From Irineochytrium annulatum (taxonomy: Eukaryota; Chytridiomycota; Chytridiomycetes; Chytridiales; Chytridiaceae), in contig JADGJL010000620.1 of assembly GCA_027600665.1 (NCBI GenBank), forward strand, positions 1-17,107: a stretch of 17,107 nucleotides of DNA, given 5' to 3'. Made by a program: the position numbers and the translations under genes. The notes beneath the pieces are model-generated. The model saw only the letters and a program-made list of their open reading frames with translations, ran no database searches and had not been told where the DNA came from. This document shows, in pieces, positions 4,246 to 17,107 of this stretch (position 1 is its first letter; the number at the start of each line of letters is the position of its first letter).

Positions 4246-6124
4246 ATGGCGCCGAGGAAAAGGTCCGGCGGCGGTATGTTGTCCCACATCTCACCCGTGC
4301 TCATCCTTCAACCCAGACGCCGGCCGATCGCAGCAGCAGCCTCAGGTGCAGCCGCGCTCGCGAAGCCGGCACTCCCCACGATCGAAGCCGGAGCCTTTGT
4401 CGCCCGTGTCGCCGTCGCTGCTGGCCCTCCCACCACCGCTTCTCCTCGACCCCGCAGAGCTCGATGACGCTCCAAGCAAGCCCGGTCGCGGGTTTAGGTC
4501 GCGATCGTTGACGCGGAAAGAGTCGGGAGCGAAGGGGTTAGTCCTACCACCGTCACCGACGCTCGAGCCGCTTCCACCGCCTGCCTTGGGCACGCCGACA
4601 CCGGCTCCGGCGTCATTGCGGGGCACGCGAGACGTGTTCAGGCCTCATGTCCGCCCCGGCGGTCACATCCTAGACCTCGCGCCTTACGAGATCTGGGAGA
4701 TGATCGTGGGCCTCCTCGGACCAGCGGACGCGTTTGTCCTCCGGGGGCTGTGCTCGACAATGCGCGGGGCGTTTAGGGCCGACCTAACGGAGCGTGCAAT
4801 GGCGGGGGAGATTTTGGTTCAGCTGAGAGCCTTCGCTGTTGATGCCTTTTTGGCCGGAATGGAAGTGGGCGGTGCGGGCGTCGGTGTCGAGGGTTCAGGT
4901 GGGGCGGAGGTGGGAGCGAGGCTGTCGGTGGCGAGCTCAGGGGAGACGGCGATGTCATCGTCGCCTTCCCTTGCGCCACACGGCGGTTGGTTCACCGCGC
5001 GGCCGCCCGCGTCGCCGCGGTTCCGTCCATCGGTGTACGGCAACGGTAGCGGCGGGACCGTCTTCTCGTCCTCGTCTTGCTCGACCACCACGTTCGTGGA
5101 CCCTGGCGACCCCGTCCGCCTGCACCACCACATCGACGCCTTCCTCATCCGCGCGCTCGGCGCCGAGCCCGATCGCCACACGGATGACTTCACGGAGTGG
5201 GCTGGGTACGACCCTTCGTTGACGGGCCTGGCCATGGCCGAGCGGCGGGACGAGTGGCTGCGAAAGGGCGGTGGGAGCAGGGGTCGCAGCAGGAGCAGGA
5301 GGCATGTAGAGTGGGAAGCGGCCATGGTCGCAATGTCCGGGGAGATCAAAGCGCTGCTGTGCAGGGTGTGGGCCATATCGGGCAAGTTGTACCCGTTCTC
5401 GAAGGCCGAGAATGGGGTCTGGAAGGAAAGGAAGCGCGCCAGGCTGGTGAAGGAGAAGGCTGCGGCCGAACGCGAAAAGGTTAGAGGGGCCGAGAAGGGG
5501 AAGAGGTGCGGGACGGGGGATCAGAGCAGCAGGGAGGCTGGTGGAAAGCAGGAGGCCGAGGATGAGAAGACGTGGGAGAAGACTCCCAGGAAGCCAAGAA
5601 GGCCCAATCGTTCAGGGTCGCCGGACTTCCACCGGTCTATTCTCGCTGATCACAGGACGATTGACTATTATGTAGCGAACTTGGGCGGTCAATTAGTCAA
5701 ACCCATGTTAGGGGAGGGGCGGCTGAGTCAGGCGACATTAACGGAAATGGACGGTCTTTTGGTCGCCCCCGTATCACCGTCGACTGGCTTTACACCCTTT
5801 ACATCAGCATCAGTTCCGGACCTATCGACAGTGCACATTGATTTGGCGGCGGCCGGAAACGAAGCTTCCCTGTCGTCCTCGCCAGCGCCCACCACCGCCG
5901 TTCTGCCAGGCTCACAGCGGGAAGTGTGCAGGGCCTGCCTTTCCCTTTTCACTGAGGACGGCGGCTGTCGCGTGCTTCGGTTTCCGCCATCCCTCGATGC
6001 AGAATCAAGGAAAAGTCTACACATGGCCGCCCAGCGGTTGGGGTTGAGGACCTGTTCGTTTGGGGATGGGACGAAGCGGTTCATGGTGGCGGTCAAGAAG
6101 GGAGTGACGATTTTTAGGGATTAG
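4246..6124 (+). CDS. F-box-like protein with R3H-associated-like segment and C-terminal R3H domain
   Basis: Model: exon 1 at 4246-4273, a 43-bp intron at 4274-4316 (GTATGT...CAACCCAG), exon 2 at 4317-6124; 611 residues. The long frame has no in-frame ATG upstream of the F-box, so the short first exon starting MAPRKRSGG supplies the start; phase fits. Residues about 127-165 are F-box-like (ILDLAPYEIWEMIVGLLG, then a Cys-containing helix), which in SCF ubiquitin ligases binds Skp1. Residues about 276-347 (HHHIDAFLIRALG ... AERRDEWLRKG, then an Arg/Ser-rich stretch) resemble the N-terminal region that accompanies R3H in fungal R3HDM4-like proteins. Residues about 561-606 are an R3H domain, with the Arg-x3-His signature at R574/H578 (RKSLH) after LRFPPSLDAES; R3H binds single-stranded nucleic acid. 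The N-terminus is Pro/Ser-rich. A Lys/Glu-rich, coiled or disordered stretch lies near 375-440. The domain combination is unusual; substrate unknown. Confidence 0.83.
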
Positions 6125-9915: not shown

Positions 9916-12900
9916 ATGTCTACAACGGGAGGTGCCGCGGGGACCGGCCGCGGCCAGTCGGACACCTCGGCCAACGGCAATGCTTCCGGGGTGACCCCTC
10001 CACTCCACCCGCATGCCTACCCGAGCAACATTGCCTACATGAATATCCAGCAGGGCATCGCGACGGCGAACGCGGGCCAGATGCCGCCAGGCCCTCCTTA
10101 CGGCTACTTTATGCCAATCGATCAACAACACCAACTCCTCCACCAGCAGCAGCAAGCCCAGCAGGCTCAACAGCAGCAGCAGCTAAATAATCAGAACAGC
10201 CACCAGCGGAGAACGAGCATGCCGTTCGGGGGGGACCCGACGACCGCCCAATCTATGTCCGCCGCGGCAGCACAGGTCGCGGCCGCGGCCTCGGCGGCCC
10301 ACTTCTACGACCCAGCGCACCTTTTAAATCAGCAGAGCTCGCTATTGCGCCAAGCATACCCACCTGCCTCCGCGGTCCCCAGCGGCTCGGGATCAGCCGG
10401 CGTCAGCCCGGTCATGATGGCCTATCCGCAATTCAACCCCGCGAACAACACCACCCAGCGGGGCCCTTCACCCGTTCAGCCACTTGGGATAAGCCTCCAG
10501 GCACTTAACAACAACATGCGAAAGTACCGCCCTTTCCCCATGAACAACAATCAACCACCCCAGATGGGATCTCATTTTCACCCGCCCACCACTGCCGCGC
10601 TCGCGCAGCTCCAGCAGCACGCTGGTGGCGCGGGCGGGATCGCCGCCTTGACTGGTGCGTCCGCCGCCGCGGCCGCCGTCACCGCCTCCCAGCTGCCCAT
10701 GACGAGCATGGTCAGCCAGGCGCCGTGGAAGTGCGAGAAGCACGCATCCTCGAAGCCGCACCACGGGTTCCTCTCCTACCGTCCCTTGACGGATTCCCGC
10801 CTCGCGTCCGCGATCCTGAACGCGTACGAGAGCCTCTGCAGGCACGGCCTGATCGCTGGCGCGCATCACGGCGGTCCCGGTGGCGCGCCCGTGGTCTCGG
10901 CGGACGGGAGGAGGAGGACGGGCAAAGGCGTGCCGGGGGCCACGGATGGGAGGGAGATGTACGCGGACTTTGCGTGTTATGGGAGCGAGGATCCGAGGAG
11001 CAGCTCGTATGTGACGCCAACGGGGTATATGGGGATGATGGTGAGCGGGGCGCAGCAGACGGCGACGGCGCTGACGCAGGGCTTGAGGAGGAGCCAGTGG
11101 ATTGTGTATATTGTGTCGGAGGCGAGTCTGGATGTGATGGTGGCGAGGACGGGGAGGGGGGTGAGTTTATTCATCTTTAGTCTTTCTACCGTTATTTATA
11201 TTTCCGTTTCTTTCTTATTCTCTTCTATATTTGGTCCGTCACTCATTTTTGTTGGATAACTAGATGGCCGACCCGCACTTAGCCGAAATGGAGGAAGGGC
11301 TTCAGCTAGAGCGTCGCGGCTTGACTACGATTCTGCCCATCTTTATCGGCCGGAGTAACCCGGACGGATCGCGTTCCCGTTTCTCGCAGTCTTACCGAGA
11401 ACGTGCTCAGTATGGCATTTCGGCGAAAGTGAAATCCGTTTTGGCATCTCTGTTCTCGGCAAAGCACTCGGTGAGATTCGCCGGGTCGGTGGAAAACATG
11501 GCGTTGGAGATTTTGAGGCATATCGATCCAGAGGCATACTCATGTGAGTAAATTGCGCCCTTTCATTCTTGTAATCAGTATATTGTTAACGTGATCACCA
11601 TTAGATCTAACCAATTTCCCGCCGCCTCAAATGACCCCGTATCTATCGTCAACACATGTCATCCGGCCCGTCGAGTTTCAAAAGCTGTCGGAGAGCATCA
11701 AAATTTGGGGATATGGCGTGATTGCCGGAGGTCCGAACGTCGGGAAGACCTTGTTGGCGTCCCAGTATGCGCTCGCACATCGTGCAAAGTATAGCCACGT
11801 ACTTTGGATATCCTGCAAGAGCCAGGATGACGTTGTGGATTCCTTCGCTCTGCTAGTGCGGGAACTCTGCCCGGAGGTGGCCGCCGGCGCGACAACGAAT
11901 ACCCCATTTCTCTCTATCCTTGATGAGCTCGAGCGGCCCGTCCTCCAGTGGCTCCAGAGCAGCAGCACGTACCTTCTCATTCTCGACGGTCCCCGCGACA
12001 AATCCTTCCTCCGCTCCATCTTTCACGACATTAAGAACTTTCACGGCAACCTGATCATCATCTCGGAGGACCCAACGATCGCGGACGCTCTCAACCTGAA
12101 GAAGGTCTCGAGCACGATGGAGGACCCGTCGACGCGGGTCGTCTTTCTTAGGGATTGGGGAAAAGCCGAGAGCCGCGCTATGCTGGGTTACTACTCGACG
12201 CAGGAAATTGACGTCCAGCGAAGCATCGATTGGCTGGCGAAGCGGATCAAAAATTCGTTGCCGTGCGCGCTCACGCTGGCGTACATGGCGAGCGAGAACG
12301 TTACGGTGGGGGAGGTTATGAGGCGCGTGCAGAAGGTCGAAGAGATGATGGAGGAGCCCGACGAGAATGGCGTGAGGGGACAGGCACCGTCGTACCTCAA
12401 CATCATCTTCCACCTGGCAATATCGACGCTGGTTAACGGTGGCAGCGCGGGGAGTTGCGCCATGGCGATCCTTGACGTTGTGGCCTTCACGTCGCCACAG
12501 CATGCGGTGCCCATCGTGCCGTTCGCGACTGCGGCAGTTTTCGGGGGTGATCCGGATCTGTACCATCGTGCGCTGCAGCTCCTCGAGGACAAGAACCTGG
12601 TCCAGAGGCAGACGTCATTTTTAGGACCGTCCCTCACGTGCCACACGACTGTGAGGAAGTTGGTGCGGGCGAGGGACCTGAGCAGATCTATCAGAGCGTC
12701 GATAGGATCCAGTGGCGGCAGGGCCAGCGGTCACGGCGCGGACGCGGCTGGGGCGATGGTTACTGTGGACACCGCCGACGACCGGGATCCATTAGATAAG
12801 CTCGCCGAGCTTCTCTCGGTGGGGTACGAGGCCATCGACTCCGGGCCCTCGCTTCAGCCCGGATCAAAGCAGGACGTGTCGTACCGCCATATGATGCTTG

Positions 12901-15416
12901 ACCACATCCTCGACGGCTGCCTCTCGATCCGCGTCGCCCTCCGCGACAACGCCGGTACGCTCGACGCCGACTCCAAGGGCTGGCGAATGCTCGACGCCGC
13001 GCTCCACGAGCTCGCCCTCCGCACCGTCGCGTCCGGTCAGCGCCAGCACGGCGACATGGCGCTCGACCTCCTCCTCACGCTCCAGTCCCACGTGCACGGC
13101 ACGCGCGCGCACGAGAGCGTCGCCAACACGTTGGACACCATGGCTTGGCGCTCGACAGAGCTGGGCGACCCGGAGCGAGCGAGGGAGCTGCACGAGCAGT
13201 GCCTGACAGCGTGCGCGGGACACTACGGGACCAGGGACCACGTGTCGGTCGCGAGGCAGTTTGCGAGCTTGGCGGCGCTTGCGAGGGGGGACAGGGATTT
13301 GGCCAACTCGAGAGCATACAGCGAGGCCGCGCTCGCGACGTTTGCGCGGGTGCATGGGACGTGGGAGCATATGGATGTCGTCAACACGTTGGGCATCTTA
13401 GCGGCCGTGTCGAGGGAGGACGGGGACACGGACGCGGCGAGGCGGTACCTGCTGAGGGTGGTTGAGATTCTGGACGGGATGTTTGGGGAGGAGCTGATGA
13501 AGGATACGGGGGGCGTGACGGTTGGAGGTGTCGACAGTGCGTTCACGAGCACTGGCGTACATGTGAACGGGGGCGGGTTATGGAAGGGCAATGATGGGGC
13601 CATGATGACGGCGAGGAAGGTTAGGGTGAAAGTGAACGCGGCGTTGGAGGAGTTAGAGGCGCAGAGGGAAGCTAAGGTCATTCTCGATCTGGCGCGGCGT
13701 AGGGTCAGGCGGAAGAATGCCACCGTTAAGGTAATTGCTTTGTTTGGTGATAAGATTGCTGATGTGTTTCTTCAGCCAATTATCCCTCCACCTCCTGTTG
13801 TCGTCGTGACATCTGTCGACGAAGCGACTGATATGGCGGTAGATAACGTCTATGGTGGTTCAAAAGAGATATCAACCACTCCAATGGGTTCACCGCCGAG
13901 ACGTTTCCATCCACTGTCGACCGCGCCGTCACCGATGATCACGGTACACGAAGGCAGAGTCTCGGCCATTCCGGATGAAATGGATGAGGAGAATTGGAAT
14001 GAGGAGGAGGAGGAGATCTGGGATGAAGATGACGTCTTTTCTTTAAAGGTGGGGATTTTACCATTGTTGGTCGGTGCGAGAGAAAAAAGTATTAAAGGTC
14101 CTTTACAGCAAATGGATGCGATAGATACTTCTCGGAATTCCTCGCCGCGGGGTCGTTCCCGGAAGAAGCCGCGGGCGCGGGACCCCGCCGTCCCGCCGCG
14201 TCCGCGGAACTCGTTTATCCTCTACCGCATCGACAAGCAGCACGAAATCTTCGAGGAGCGGAAGCGCGTCGCGCAGGCCTCAAGGCTCGGCGGCGGCGGA
14301 AGCGGGAAGGAGTCCTCCCTCTCGGATAACCTCGCTGCTGCTGCCTCAGCCAACCCGCTCGCGAGCCAAATACTTGGCAACGAGAACGGCGCCGACTACG
14401 CGGACCTTGGCAAGCTAATCGGCGAGATGTGGCGGCGCGAGAGCCCCGAGGTGAAAGCTCTCTACCAGAAGCGCGCAGAGGAGGGCCGGATCGAGCACAA
14501 GCGCGTTCACCCGAACTATAAGTACAACATGTCGAGGTCCAATAGCGTCGGGCCCGACGGGCCGGACTCTAGGCCCGGCAGTGCACTCGCGTCCGCCAAG
14601 ACGTCTCCGAGGCCGAAAAAGAAGAAGGTTAAACTCGAGAACGGTGAGGAGGTGTCGGCGCCGCCATCGCGCGTCCTGACCCCGATGCCGATGCTAGGCG
14701 GATTTCCGGTGGAAGCGGATAGGCATGCGGAAGCTGACGGGGCTTTGGAGGAAGTTGGTGACATGGAGGATACGCCGACAGCGGCCGCCTTAGTTCTCGG
14801 GCTGGGATCGTTGAGACCACCGGCAGGTGCGACCTGGGCGGTCGCGTACCAGCCGGGTCAGCCGGGTGTGTCGATTTTGGGCAAGGGGCCTGGTGAAACG
14901 GAGTGGAAGAGTGTACGGTTAGCGAGGGCGTTGGTGGATGGGGTGGAGGCGCGCGAGGAAGGCGAGGGCGGAGAGGACGAGGAGGGAATTGCTGGGGATG
15001 AGGATGCCGAGGACGGCGGCGATAAGGGCCCGCCGCCGCCACCCGGGTCGTCGGGGGCTGGCGGCGGGTCCAACGGCGAGGGTGGAAGTGGGGGCGGGAA
15101 GTCGGATTTCGGGGCCGATGATAGGATGGATGAGGATGGGGATGGCGGTCACGATGAAGGTGGCGGGAGCTCGAAACCGACGAATGGAGGCGTCGTGGAT
15201 GGAGCTGGGATGGCGCACTTTGCCGCGGGACGGGTGCCTGATGTCTGCAGTCCGCCCACTTCACCTAAGAAACGGTCCTTTATTTCGCCCGTTAAGTCAT
15301 CACCACGGCGTCTAACAACGACGAAGATGATTGATGGGAGTGCGACGAAGGTTGCTGCTAAATCGCTGATGATGTCGCCGATGTCACCTGAGAAGGCTCA
15401 CCAGCACGCATTGTAA
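9916..15416 (+). CDS. TIR - NB-ARC - TPR receptor continuous with an HMG-box DNA-binding domain (NLR/transcription-factor fusion)
   Basis: Exons: 9916-11160, 11264-11543, 11605-13730, 13776-15416; about 1763 residues. Introns: 103 bp (GTGAGT), 61 bp (GTGAGT, branch GTTAACG), and a 45-bp stop-free one (GTAATT...TTCTTCAG); a second in-frame 60-bp intron at 14049-14108 is possible. Order: Q/N- and Ala-rich region (1-270); TIR-like domain about 283-445 (GFLSYRPLTDSRLA, VYIVSEASL, DPHLAEMEEGLQL, ILPIFIG; candidate catalytic Glu423/425); NB-ARC-type NTPase with P-loop GGPNVGKT (550-557), Walker B LLILDG (Asp636), sensor-like IIIS662 and an LPCALTLAYMA motif; TPR repeats about 1000-1135 with 43-residue spacing (GTRAH, GTRDH, GTWEH); acidic linker; HMG-box about 1357-1467 (PRPRNSFILYR, IGEMWRRESPEVKALYQ, HPNYKY) with a roughly 40-residue insert; NLS KKKKVK (1498-1503); acidic and Ser-Pro-rich tail. 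TIR-NB-ARC-TPR receptors sense and oligomerise; the HMG class binds DNA and includes fungal mating-type regulators. Single-gene status is inferred from the uninterrupted frame. Confidence 0.78.
13731..13775 (+). other. 45-bp stop-free intron inside the TIR/NB-ARC/HMG gene
   Basis: GTAATTGC... to ...GTTTCTTCAG has a donor, a branch-like TTGCTGAT and a pyrimidine-rich acceptor. It is 45 bp, a multiple of three, and has no in-frame stop, so an ORF finder reads through it. It is AT-rich against a GC-rich exon, which supports intron status. Retention would only insert 15 residues between the TPR region and the linker. Confidence 0.6.
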
Positions 15417-15806: not shown

Positions 15807-17107
15807 TCATTTGCCCCTCAACACCGACGCCAAGGCCTTGTAACAGAACAGGAGCTGTTCTGGCCGGTCGAGCATTCTTAGACGCTGCAGTCTGAGAAGT
15901 TTAGAAGCTCGGTTGCATTCAGGACGGGCTCACCTCATGCACCAGAACAGCTCATGCACCACATCCGTCACCCCGACTCGCCGACCGAAACGCTCGACAT
16001 CATTTCTTAACGCGGTCCTCAACCCATGCATAAGAATAAACGTCCCCGACCGCCCGCACCCGGCGCTGCAGTGTACCACCATAGGTGCAGGTTTTACTTC
16101 ACAAACATCCTTGGGGGCCACGGCGGCCGCTCCCCGTGAAACCTCGCCTCCCACCACGATCGCCATCAGCTCGTTAAACTGTTCCAAATCCGGCGCTTTT
16201 CCGTCGCCCCAGGAAGTGTAATGCAGCTGCCTTACCACCCGCGGCGGGTCCGATGGCGGCAGGAAAGCACCGGGCGGTGGGGGTGTGATTGCACTCGCAA
16301 CCGAGAGACTAAAAATCCTTTCGCGAATAGTCGTCTGCTCGATCTGGGCGTCGCGCGTGCACTCCACCGTCAGGGCCGTTTTTGCGGAGGGAAGCGGGTA
16401 GTTGACCGACTGCGAGGCGTCGGGCCAGTAGTGAGCGCATTTTTGCTGCAATGGGACACGTTAAGATGGGGCCAACGGACAAAACGTCGTTGATAACGAT
16501 GCAGACGCCGGAAGAAGAAGGCAATAACGACCATAGCATACCATTCCTTTTTCAATCTCGTTTGCGAGCATTATGATGGTATCCGCGCCAGACTCGTATA
16601 CCATCTGCCAAAAGTCCCCCGCTGTCTCCTCTAAAGGCCCTTGGGTCGATATATAGGTATAAGGGTTATCAGGAAGCTTAATAATAGCGTCAGAGAAGAC
16701 GAGAAATTGCGGGCTAAGAAGGAAAAGGCTCAGGACAACCAAGCAATTCAAGAGAGCGATAATACAGTTACAACCGACCGACCTGTATCGTACTTGCGTT
16801 AACGTAGTCAGTTCGTGACCCCTTGCTAAGTCGGAAACGATTTCGGTCGAAGGGCAAGATATCCCGATATCGATTCAGTTTCATGTTCATCAGCGCATCC
16901 GAGATGCAGTAATGCTCGCCCAACTCCTTGGCCTGCTGAGCGATGAGGTGGTCGAAGAGAGAGTCCGCCGACTGCAGCGACCATTTACGTTAGCAATGAT
17001 GCGATTCAAGCAATGGAGAGTATGAGGGGCTAGCCTGGAACGCCTCTGGGAATCTGGAACGGGCCCCAGCACTCCCGGCTTGGATCACACCAACCCTTCA
17101 TCCACCC
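15807..17107 (-). CDS. Classical (non-receptor type) protein tyrosine phosphatase, N-terminus outside window
   Basis: Removes phosphate from phosphotyrosine by a Cys-phosphate intermediate. Exons on the minus strand: 17035 to about the window end (tentative), 16971-16783, 16676-16542, 16445-15934, 15891-15807. Introns of 63, 106, 96 and 42 bp have consistent phase. PTP motifs in order: NRYRDILPFDRNRFRLS and DYVNAS; LPDNPYTYISTQGPLEET and DFWQMV; EKGMQKCAHYWPD; HYTSWGDGKAP (the WPD-loop equivalent, Pro replaced by Gly, acid Asp kept); the P-loop HCSAGCGRSGTF (16073-16038, nucleophile Cys and binding Arg intact); and the C-terminal DRPEQLLFCYKAL. The stop is at 15807-15809. The first visible intron may use a GC donor, and the most upstream exon is uncertain; residues before SADSLFDHL depend on it. 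In fungi such enzymes dampen MAP-kinase signalling; the actual substrate here is unknown. Confidence 0.92.

Follow-up and report, generated by a model that had tools for sequence, protein, structure and literature searches.

We have analysed a window of 17 107 nucleotides from contig C680 of the assembly of Irineochytrium annulatum, a chytrid of the family Chytridiaceae (1082 contigs, 26.9 Mb), and describe here a gene on its plus strand at positions 9916–15416. Its parts follow one another in a single open frame, the repeats and the high-mobility-group (HMG) box belong to recognized families and the nucleotide-switch part is homologous to known proteins. In our view, the anatomy and switch logic are on balance those of a receptor of the nucleotide-binding leucine-rich repeat (NLR) type, a member of the signal transduction ATPases with numerous domains (STAND), in which one gene joins a TIR domain, a switch, tetratricopeptide repeats (TPRs) and a C-terminal HMG-box. 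Judged from these parts, the most likely reading is a switch of the NLR type into which a DNA-binding domain has been integrated, much like plant RRS1. The features of the gene are as follows.

9916–10725, plus strand: Gln/Ala/Pro-rich low-complexity N-terminus, residues 1–270 of the 1778-residue model (from the translation; codon bias favours its own frame).
10726–11160, plus strand: putative TIR domain, first part (WKCEKH...HHGFLSYR...SQWIVYIVS), at the end of exon 1 (hhalign against three TIR domains of the same genome).
11161–11263, plus strand: intron 1, GT-AG (GTGAGT...CTAG), 103 bases, G+C 0.31; also in the public model.
11264–11543, plus strand: exon 2, remainder of the putative TIR domain (splice model and hhalign alignment).
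11544–11604, plus strand: intron 2, GT-AG (GTGAGT...TTAG), 61 bases, G+C 0.36; also in the public model.
11718–12668, plus strand: NB-ARC-like STAND nucleotide-binding and winged-helix region (NF040586 positions 29–328, E 2.9e-14).
11727–11750, plus strand: Walker A, GGPNVGKT (sequence and alignment).
11973–11987, plus strand: Walker B, LLILD (sequence and alignment).
12642–12644, plus strand: MHD-like histidine (sequence and alignment).
12999–13493, plus strand: TPRs of kinesin-light-chain type (Pfam TPR_12 and TPR_10).
13731–13775, plus strand: candidate in-frame intron (GTAATT...TTCTTCAG), 45 bases, a multiple of three, stop-free, G+C 0.36.
13776–14048, plus strand: Pro-rich and then acidic linker from TPR to HMG-box (sole open frame among six; codon bias).
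14049–14108, plus strand: candidate in-frame intron (GTGGGG...TTTACAG), 60 bases, a multiple of three, stop-free, G+C 0.42.
14193–14537, plus strand: HMG-box (PPRPRNSFILYR...HPNYKYNMSR; Pfam HMG_box).
14610–14633, plus strand: basic stretch RPKKKKVK, candidate nuclear localization signal (from the sequence).
14634–15416, plus strand: low-complexity acidic and Gly-rich C-terminal tail with stop codon (from the translation).

Exons 9916–11160, 11264–11543 and 11605–15416 join in frame to give a protein of 1778 amino acids. The frame of the third exon is without a stop from 11607 to 15413, an open frame of 1273 amino acids, of which 1261 run from the ATG at 11631 to 15416. In the public data the product is a single continuous protein of 1612 amino acids, hypothetical protein HK101_009700 (P0002), the model of which uses the identical two introns and starts at an internal methionine at 10414, within the Gln/Ala/Pro-rich region. 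Both models hold the TIR, switch, TPR and HMG parts in a single protein. The preliminary description of this DNA had claimed a long open frame at 11605–15416, a TIR domain joined to it through two introns and the order TIR, nucleotide switch, TPR and HMG in one gene. The first is borne out by the frame and the public record and the second by the GT-AG sites, their low G+C content and the shared introns of P0002, while the open frame and the public model support the third. Its account of the frame as uninterrupted holds for the genome, with the correction that the frame of the mature mRNA may be shorter because the linker contains two in-frame intron-like stretches. It had also named Pfam searches as a check: TPR and HMG_box exceeded their cut-offs, whereas TIR and NB-ARC remained below theirs.

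The switch part matches NF040586, a family of bacterial NB-ARC-TPR proteins (FxSxx_TPR), with an E value of 1.6e-24 for the exon-3 protein and 2.9e-14 for 11718–12668 alone, the score of 86.4 bits lying below the equivalog cut-off of 300. BLASTP aligned this part with P0003 (1e-18, 23% identity), a JGI protein, probably of bacterial origin, whose Pfam list includes NB-ARC and TPR. Walker A, Walker B, an LPxAL motif and the MHD-like histidine are invariant in the three-sequence alignment, and Gly38, Lys39, Thr40 and Asp119 are invariant among the gene product, P0003 and P0004. A profile of the switch and its two relatives, which themselves add to the score, matched AfsR (5.7e-12), an NB-ARC protein (3.8e-7) and NRC1 (7.8e-5) in the Protein Data Bank (PDB). 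When prokaryote genomes were scanned with the switch–TPR alignment, at least 20 loci were returned, and all of those listed were in bacterial records. Walker A, Walker B and a winged helix, by which an NLR or STAND switch is recognized, thus appear to be present, with Pfam NB-ARC itself below its cut-off; the winged helix is placed by the extent of the NF040586 match rather than by a confident model.

The TPRs exceed the Pfam cut-offs (TPR_12, 1.5e-8; TPR_10, 4.2e-7) and resemble those of kinesin light chain both in the PDB profile search and in a fold search with the predicted model. They provide the C-terminal superstructure-forming repeats of an NLR-type protein. The list from the fold search was filled by the TPR part, so that the switch part was barely probed, and a match to the STAND-TPR structure 6mfv (44th, E 2.3e-4, TM-scores below 0.25) was not used as support. 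Elsewhere in the genome two TPR frames, L033 (C740) and L034 (C197), have a common nearby stretch, MTTKGVRLSF or MTTLGVRLSF, and TPR-type matches to NF040586 occur on both contigs, with several on C197.

The assignment of the N-terminal domain as a divergent TIR is supported, but more weakly than that of the other parts. Since TIR and NB-ARC fell below the Pfam cut-offs and the NCBIfam and PADLOC comparisons were sub-threshold, distant or without a match, we turned to hhalign with TIR domains of the same genome. TIR_2 matches 16 places in the genome, ten of them over the cut-off, and eight were returned as loci; from these the TIRs of C258, C184 and C388 were chosen by eye as templates for their common SYR motif. 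Against the three-template profile the TIR part gave a probability of 93.3 and a score of 50.9, compared with a mean of 12.3 and a maximum of 21.8 for 200 residue shuffles; the templates, each left out in turn, gave probabilities of 97.9–98.6. The first part of the domain, in exon 1, is interrupted by roughly 60 inserted residues. In exon 2 the glutamate of LAEME (Glu423, 11285–11287) aligns with that of LLEWE in two other TIRs, at what we take to be the catalytic position of TIR domains; the position therefore appears to be filled, and the domain may be active. A second TIR type is found in five short cassettes (L025–L029, on C8, C524, C295 twice and C118) with the signature WLDVDxLxxG...ISDEYAxSxxCxxEF. 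These cassettes sit on contigs separate from those with the SYR-type TIRs.

The HMG-box exceeds the Pfam cut-off, with E values of 5.5e-10 on the whole protein and 8e-13 on the fragment; some 36 residues are inserted between helices 1 and 2 (about 14271–14378). An unspliced intron was considered for this insert and rejected, as the stretch is G+C-rich and, judged by eye, has no AT-rich GT...AG segment. HMG_box matches ten places in the genome, all over the cut-off, on seven contigs. In a comparison that omits a partial box on C1032, the window's box with its insert removed shares 44.6% identity with that of C378 and 44.0% with that of C479, compared with 17–30% for six other boxes, which we take to be of the HMGB type. 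All three of the more similar boxes begin helix 1 with PRPxNSF, presumably a mark of the sequence-specific type, and the best match among solved structures is SOX-9 (1.2e-4). The box thus looks like one of the sequence-specific type. The basic stretch RPKKKKVK is read as a candidate nuclear localization signal from its likeness to basic-type signals.

The preliminary description had linked this HMG-box to mating, and a mating or self/non-self determinant based on a mating-type HMG-box would be in keeping with the nearness of the window's box to the two PRPxNSF-type boxes of the genome and its lower similarity to the six others. We nevertheless find this very improbable. Boxes of the sequence-specific type are also part of transcription factors that have no role in mating. 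A scan of five neighbouring frames showed nothing like a gene of a mating locus, and the accessible text of one study reports no significant blastp hits with mating-type proteins in the chytrids analysed (PMC6572847), leaving the link unsupported.

The join between the TPRs and the HMG-box was examined through the linker. Across 13731–14113 five of the six frames contain stops and the gene frame does not; of 5000 dinucleotide shuffles, 5 kept this frame open over the whole stretch and 59 did so over the core, 13776–14048. Codon usage was referred to nine frames elsewhere in the genome, picked for length and homology (4985 codons), and controls were 2000 segments of 273 bases drawn at random from regions of the window taken as intergenic, in which 22 of 2000 frames were open. 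The codon-bias margin of the linker core was reached by 1.3% of these segments for forward frames and 2.8% for six frames; over the other forward frames it amounts to 0.36, compared with 0.15 for the TIR part of exon 1. The two tests are not independent because stops depress the codon score. Both candidate introns are exon in the public model, and as each is stop-free and a multiple of three in length their splicing would preserve the frame. In the gene frame the 15 codons of the first look coding by score (0.22), whereas the second has no coding bias in that frame and is closely followed by the ATG at 14114. A search of the linker for promoters and terminators was set aside, as its patterns are bacterial.

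These data also bear on whether two adjacent genes on the same strand mimic a fusion, the receptor splicing into another frame and an HMG gene starting at ATG 14114, shortly upstream of the HMG part. Because the gene frame itself has no stop, such an arrangement requires a frame-shifting splice. Splices of 77 bases (13699–13775) or 112 bases (13731–13842) would lead to a stop after 18 or 31 codons, further frame-shifting pairs are present in the enumeration, and both composition and codon bias fall between the receptor and HMG parts. The rarity of open frames in the linker shuffles and the intergenic controls and the annotation of one gene in the public record argue the other way, and we disfavour the two-gene arrangement as improbable. 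The linker is probably coding, and the fusion of TPRs to HMG-box is likely to be real. That the linker and HMG part share an mRNA with the receptor part is also supported, but more weakly. An extra domain within the same polypeptide, as in NLRs with integrated domains, may be present here, going by one open frame and a one-protein public model.

A number of observations weigh against a fused NLR-type receptor. Pfam NB-ARC (PF00931) gave an E value of 0.055 and 13.1 of the 23.5 bits required for the fragment, with no matches in the genome search at E 0.001, and TIR_2 gave 0.22 and 12.5 bits compared with 28, also for the fragment; neither TIR nor NB-ARC was listed by Pfam for the whole protein at E values up to 10. 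Searched alone against PDB sequences, the exon-3 protein found no NB-ARC protein at E values up to 1, the list containing HMG proteins and one antibody chain. The TIR piece found no PDB match up to E 10, a PADLOC scan gave no match, and the TIR part showed no detectable similarity to the five cassettes of the second type (hhalign probability 0.2); the three template TIRs themselves reach just 6.3 against that type. AlphaFold models were of low confidence, with a mean predicted local distance difference test (pLDDT) score of 56.6 for the switch–TPR part from three sequences, good over the TPRs alone, and of 51.2 for the HMG part from a single sequence, which was left unused. G+C, third-position G+C and codon bias all dip at 13731–14180, as in an intergenic or intronic stretch, and for 150 bases from 14031 the gene frame has no coding signal. 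Finally, the fusion is known from the genomic sequence of one genome, and protein searches found no other protein of the same architecture at E 0.001. Those searches returned three, one and one proteins, the product of this gene included each time, from 8000 and 7998 candidates with most words in common and 16 in the third; since only these candidates were scored, the lack of relatives is weak evidence. No second copy of the fusion was found in this genome by searches of limited reach, and none of the six other box-bearing contigs, which are short, appears in the list for the NB-ARC-TPR family.

The same parts could also form a fused protein without an immune role, an HMG transcription factor using a STAND switch in development or chromatin regulation in the manner of AfsR, a bacterial protein in which a DNA-binding part is joined to an NB-ARC-TPR switch. 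The match of the switch profile to AfsR, to which the relatives contribute, is in keeping with this, and the HMG-box and basic signal suit a regulator, as does a Gln-rich N-terminus, which is common in transcription factors. As a TIR-like N-terminus would be unusual in a plain regulator, we regard such a role as possible but doubtful. Its likelihood and that of the NLR-type receptor overlap and do not sum to unity because both have the same anatomy.

Comparison of the NLR-type receptor with known systems indicates both shared and divergent parts. Arabidopsis RRS1 has an N-terminal TIR, a central NB-ARC-type switch and repeats, in common with the chytrid protein. A DNA-binding transcription-factor domain in the same protein, which in RRS1-R is a WRKY domain according to the accessible text of PMC4599002, is probably shared as well, and we judge the analogy with plant NLRs of this kind, drawn in the preliminary description, to be fair. 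The differences are that the plant protein combines leucine-rich repeats with WRKY and the fungal one TPRs with HMG, and that no second NLR is present among the five scanned frames neighbouring the chytrid gene. Plant TNPs have the same order of TIR, NB-ARC and TPR, but an HMG-box goes unmentioned for them in the accessible text (PMC10586772), and their group is defined by phylogeny, whereas the chytrid protein is likened to them by domain order. The bacterial NB-ARC-TPR STAND proteins (NF040586, AfsR) have detectable homology to the switch and TPR parts, but the chytrid score is 86.4 of 300 bits and TIR and HMG lie outside the matches. The TIR-NACHT NLR on C388 has a TIR of the same class, with the WKC lead-in and SYR motif, but differs in its NACHT switch (PF05729, over the cut-off), in its other repeats and in the lack of an HMG-box match on its contig. 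This frame (L032, 1627–4368 of G000:C388) is followed by one with WD40-like and ankyrin-like sequence, as judged by eye; NACHT exceeds its cut-off at four places in the genome.

The statement in the preliminary description that fungal NLRs usually carry other effector domains needs correction. As far as their accessible texts go, chytrids gave no NLR hits in the work of Dyrka et al. (2014; PMC4986451), and TIR has been reported in NLRs of Chytridiomycota (PMC9815663, section 17). With the latter report and the TIR-NACHT frame on C388, TIR-bearing NLRs are therefore already known in chytrids, and the novelty lies in the HMG fusion. We found no description of a TIR-NB-ARC-TPR-HMG protein in the literature within reach, which excluded most subscription journals.

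For the mechanism of such a receptor, we infer that the protein may be nuclear, bind DNA, oligomerize and act in immunity. An NLR switch holds ADP at rest and oligomerizes once its repeats or integrated domain are engaged. In the chytrid protein the NB-ARC-like ATPase and winged-helix module would be the switch, the TPRs a sensor or scaffold and the divergent TIR, at the N-terminus, probably the part that signals or acts as an enzyme, while the HMG-box and basic signal would place the protein on nuclear DNA. Most probably it works in the manner of plant TIR-NLRs that bear an integrated transcription-factor domain. At rest it would be nuclear, its C-terminus either already on HMG-type sites or poised at them. 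The switch would be released by a ligand, or by an effector that acts on the TPR or the HMG part, after which the subunits would oligomerize and the TIR domain would signal. Integrated domains of NLRs have been described as baits (PMC10586772), and the Rx1 paper (PMC4599002) reports an NLR that, once a pathogen is perceived, binds DNA and distorts it, again from the accessible texts. The HMG-box could be either bait or output, and we lean towards a nuclear receptor tied to DNA by its HMG part. A fungal NLR with its own transcription factor, in which ligand sensing by the TPRs is coupled in one molecule to DNA binding and bending by the HMG-box, so that activation acts on transcription directly, with the TIR domain signalling at the same time, is a further step that we consider rather unlikely.

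The idea of the integrated decoy owes its shape to plant NLRs that carry transcription-factor domains. If the interpretation as an NLR-type receptor is correct, receptors would have gained DNA-binding domains outside plants as well, by the same logic and with different parts, and an early-diverging fungus would be available for testing receptor output at DNA. The gene also adds an example to the TIR-bearing NLR-type proteins of chytrids.

Two other frames were noted in the window. A protein tyrosine phosphatase frame on the minus strand at 15933–16451 (Y_phosphatase, 1.8e-17) lies just downstream of the gene and is convergent with it, and a frame on the plus strand at 4346–6121 contains an R3H domain (5e-7).

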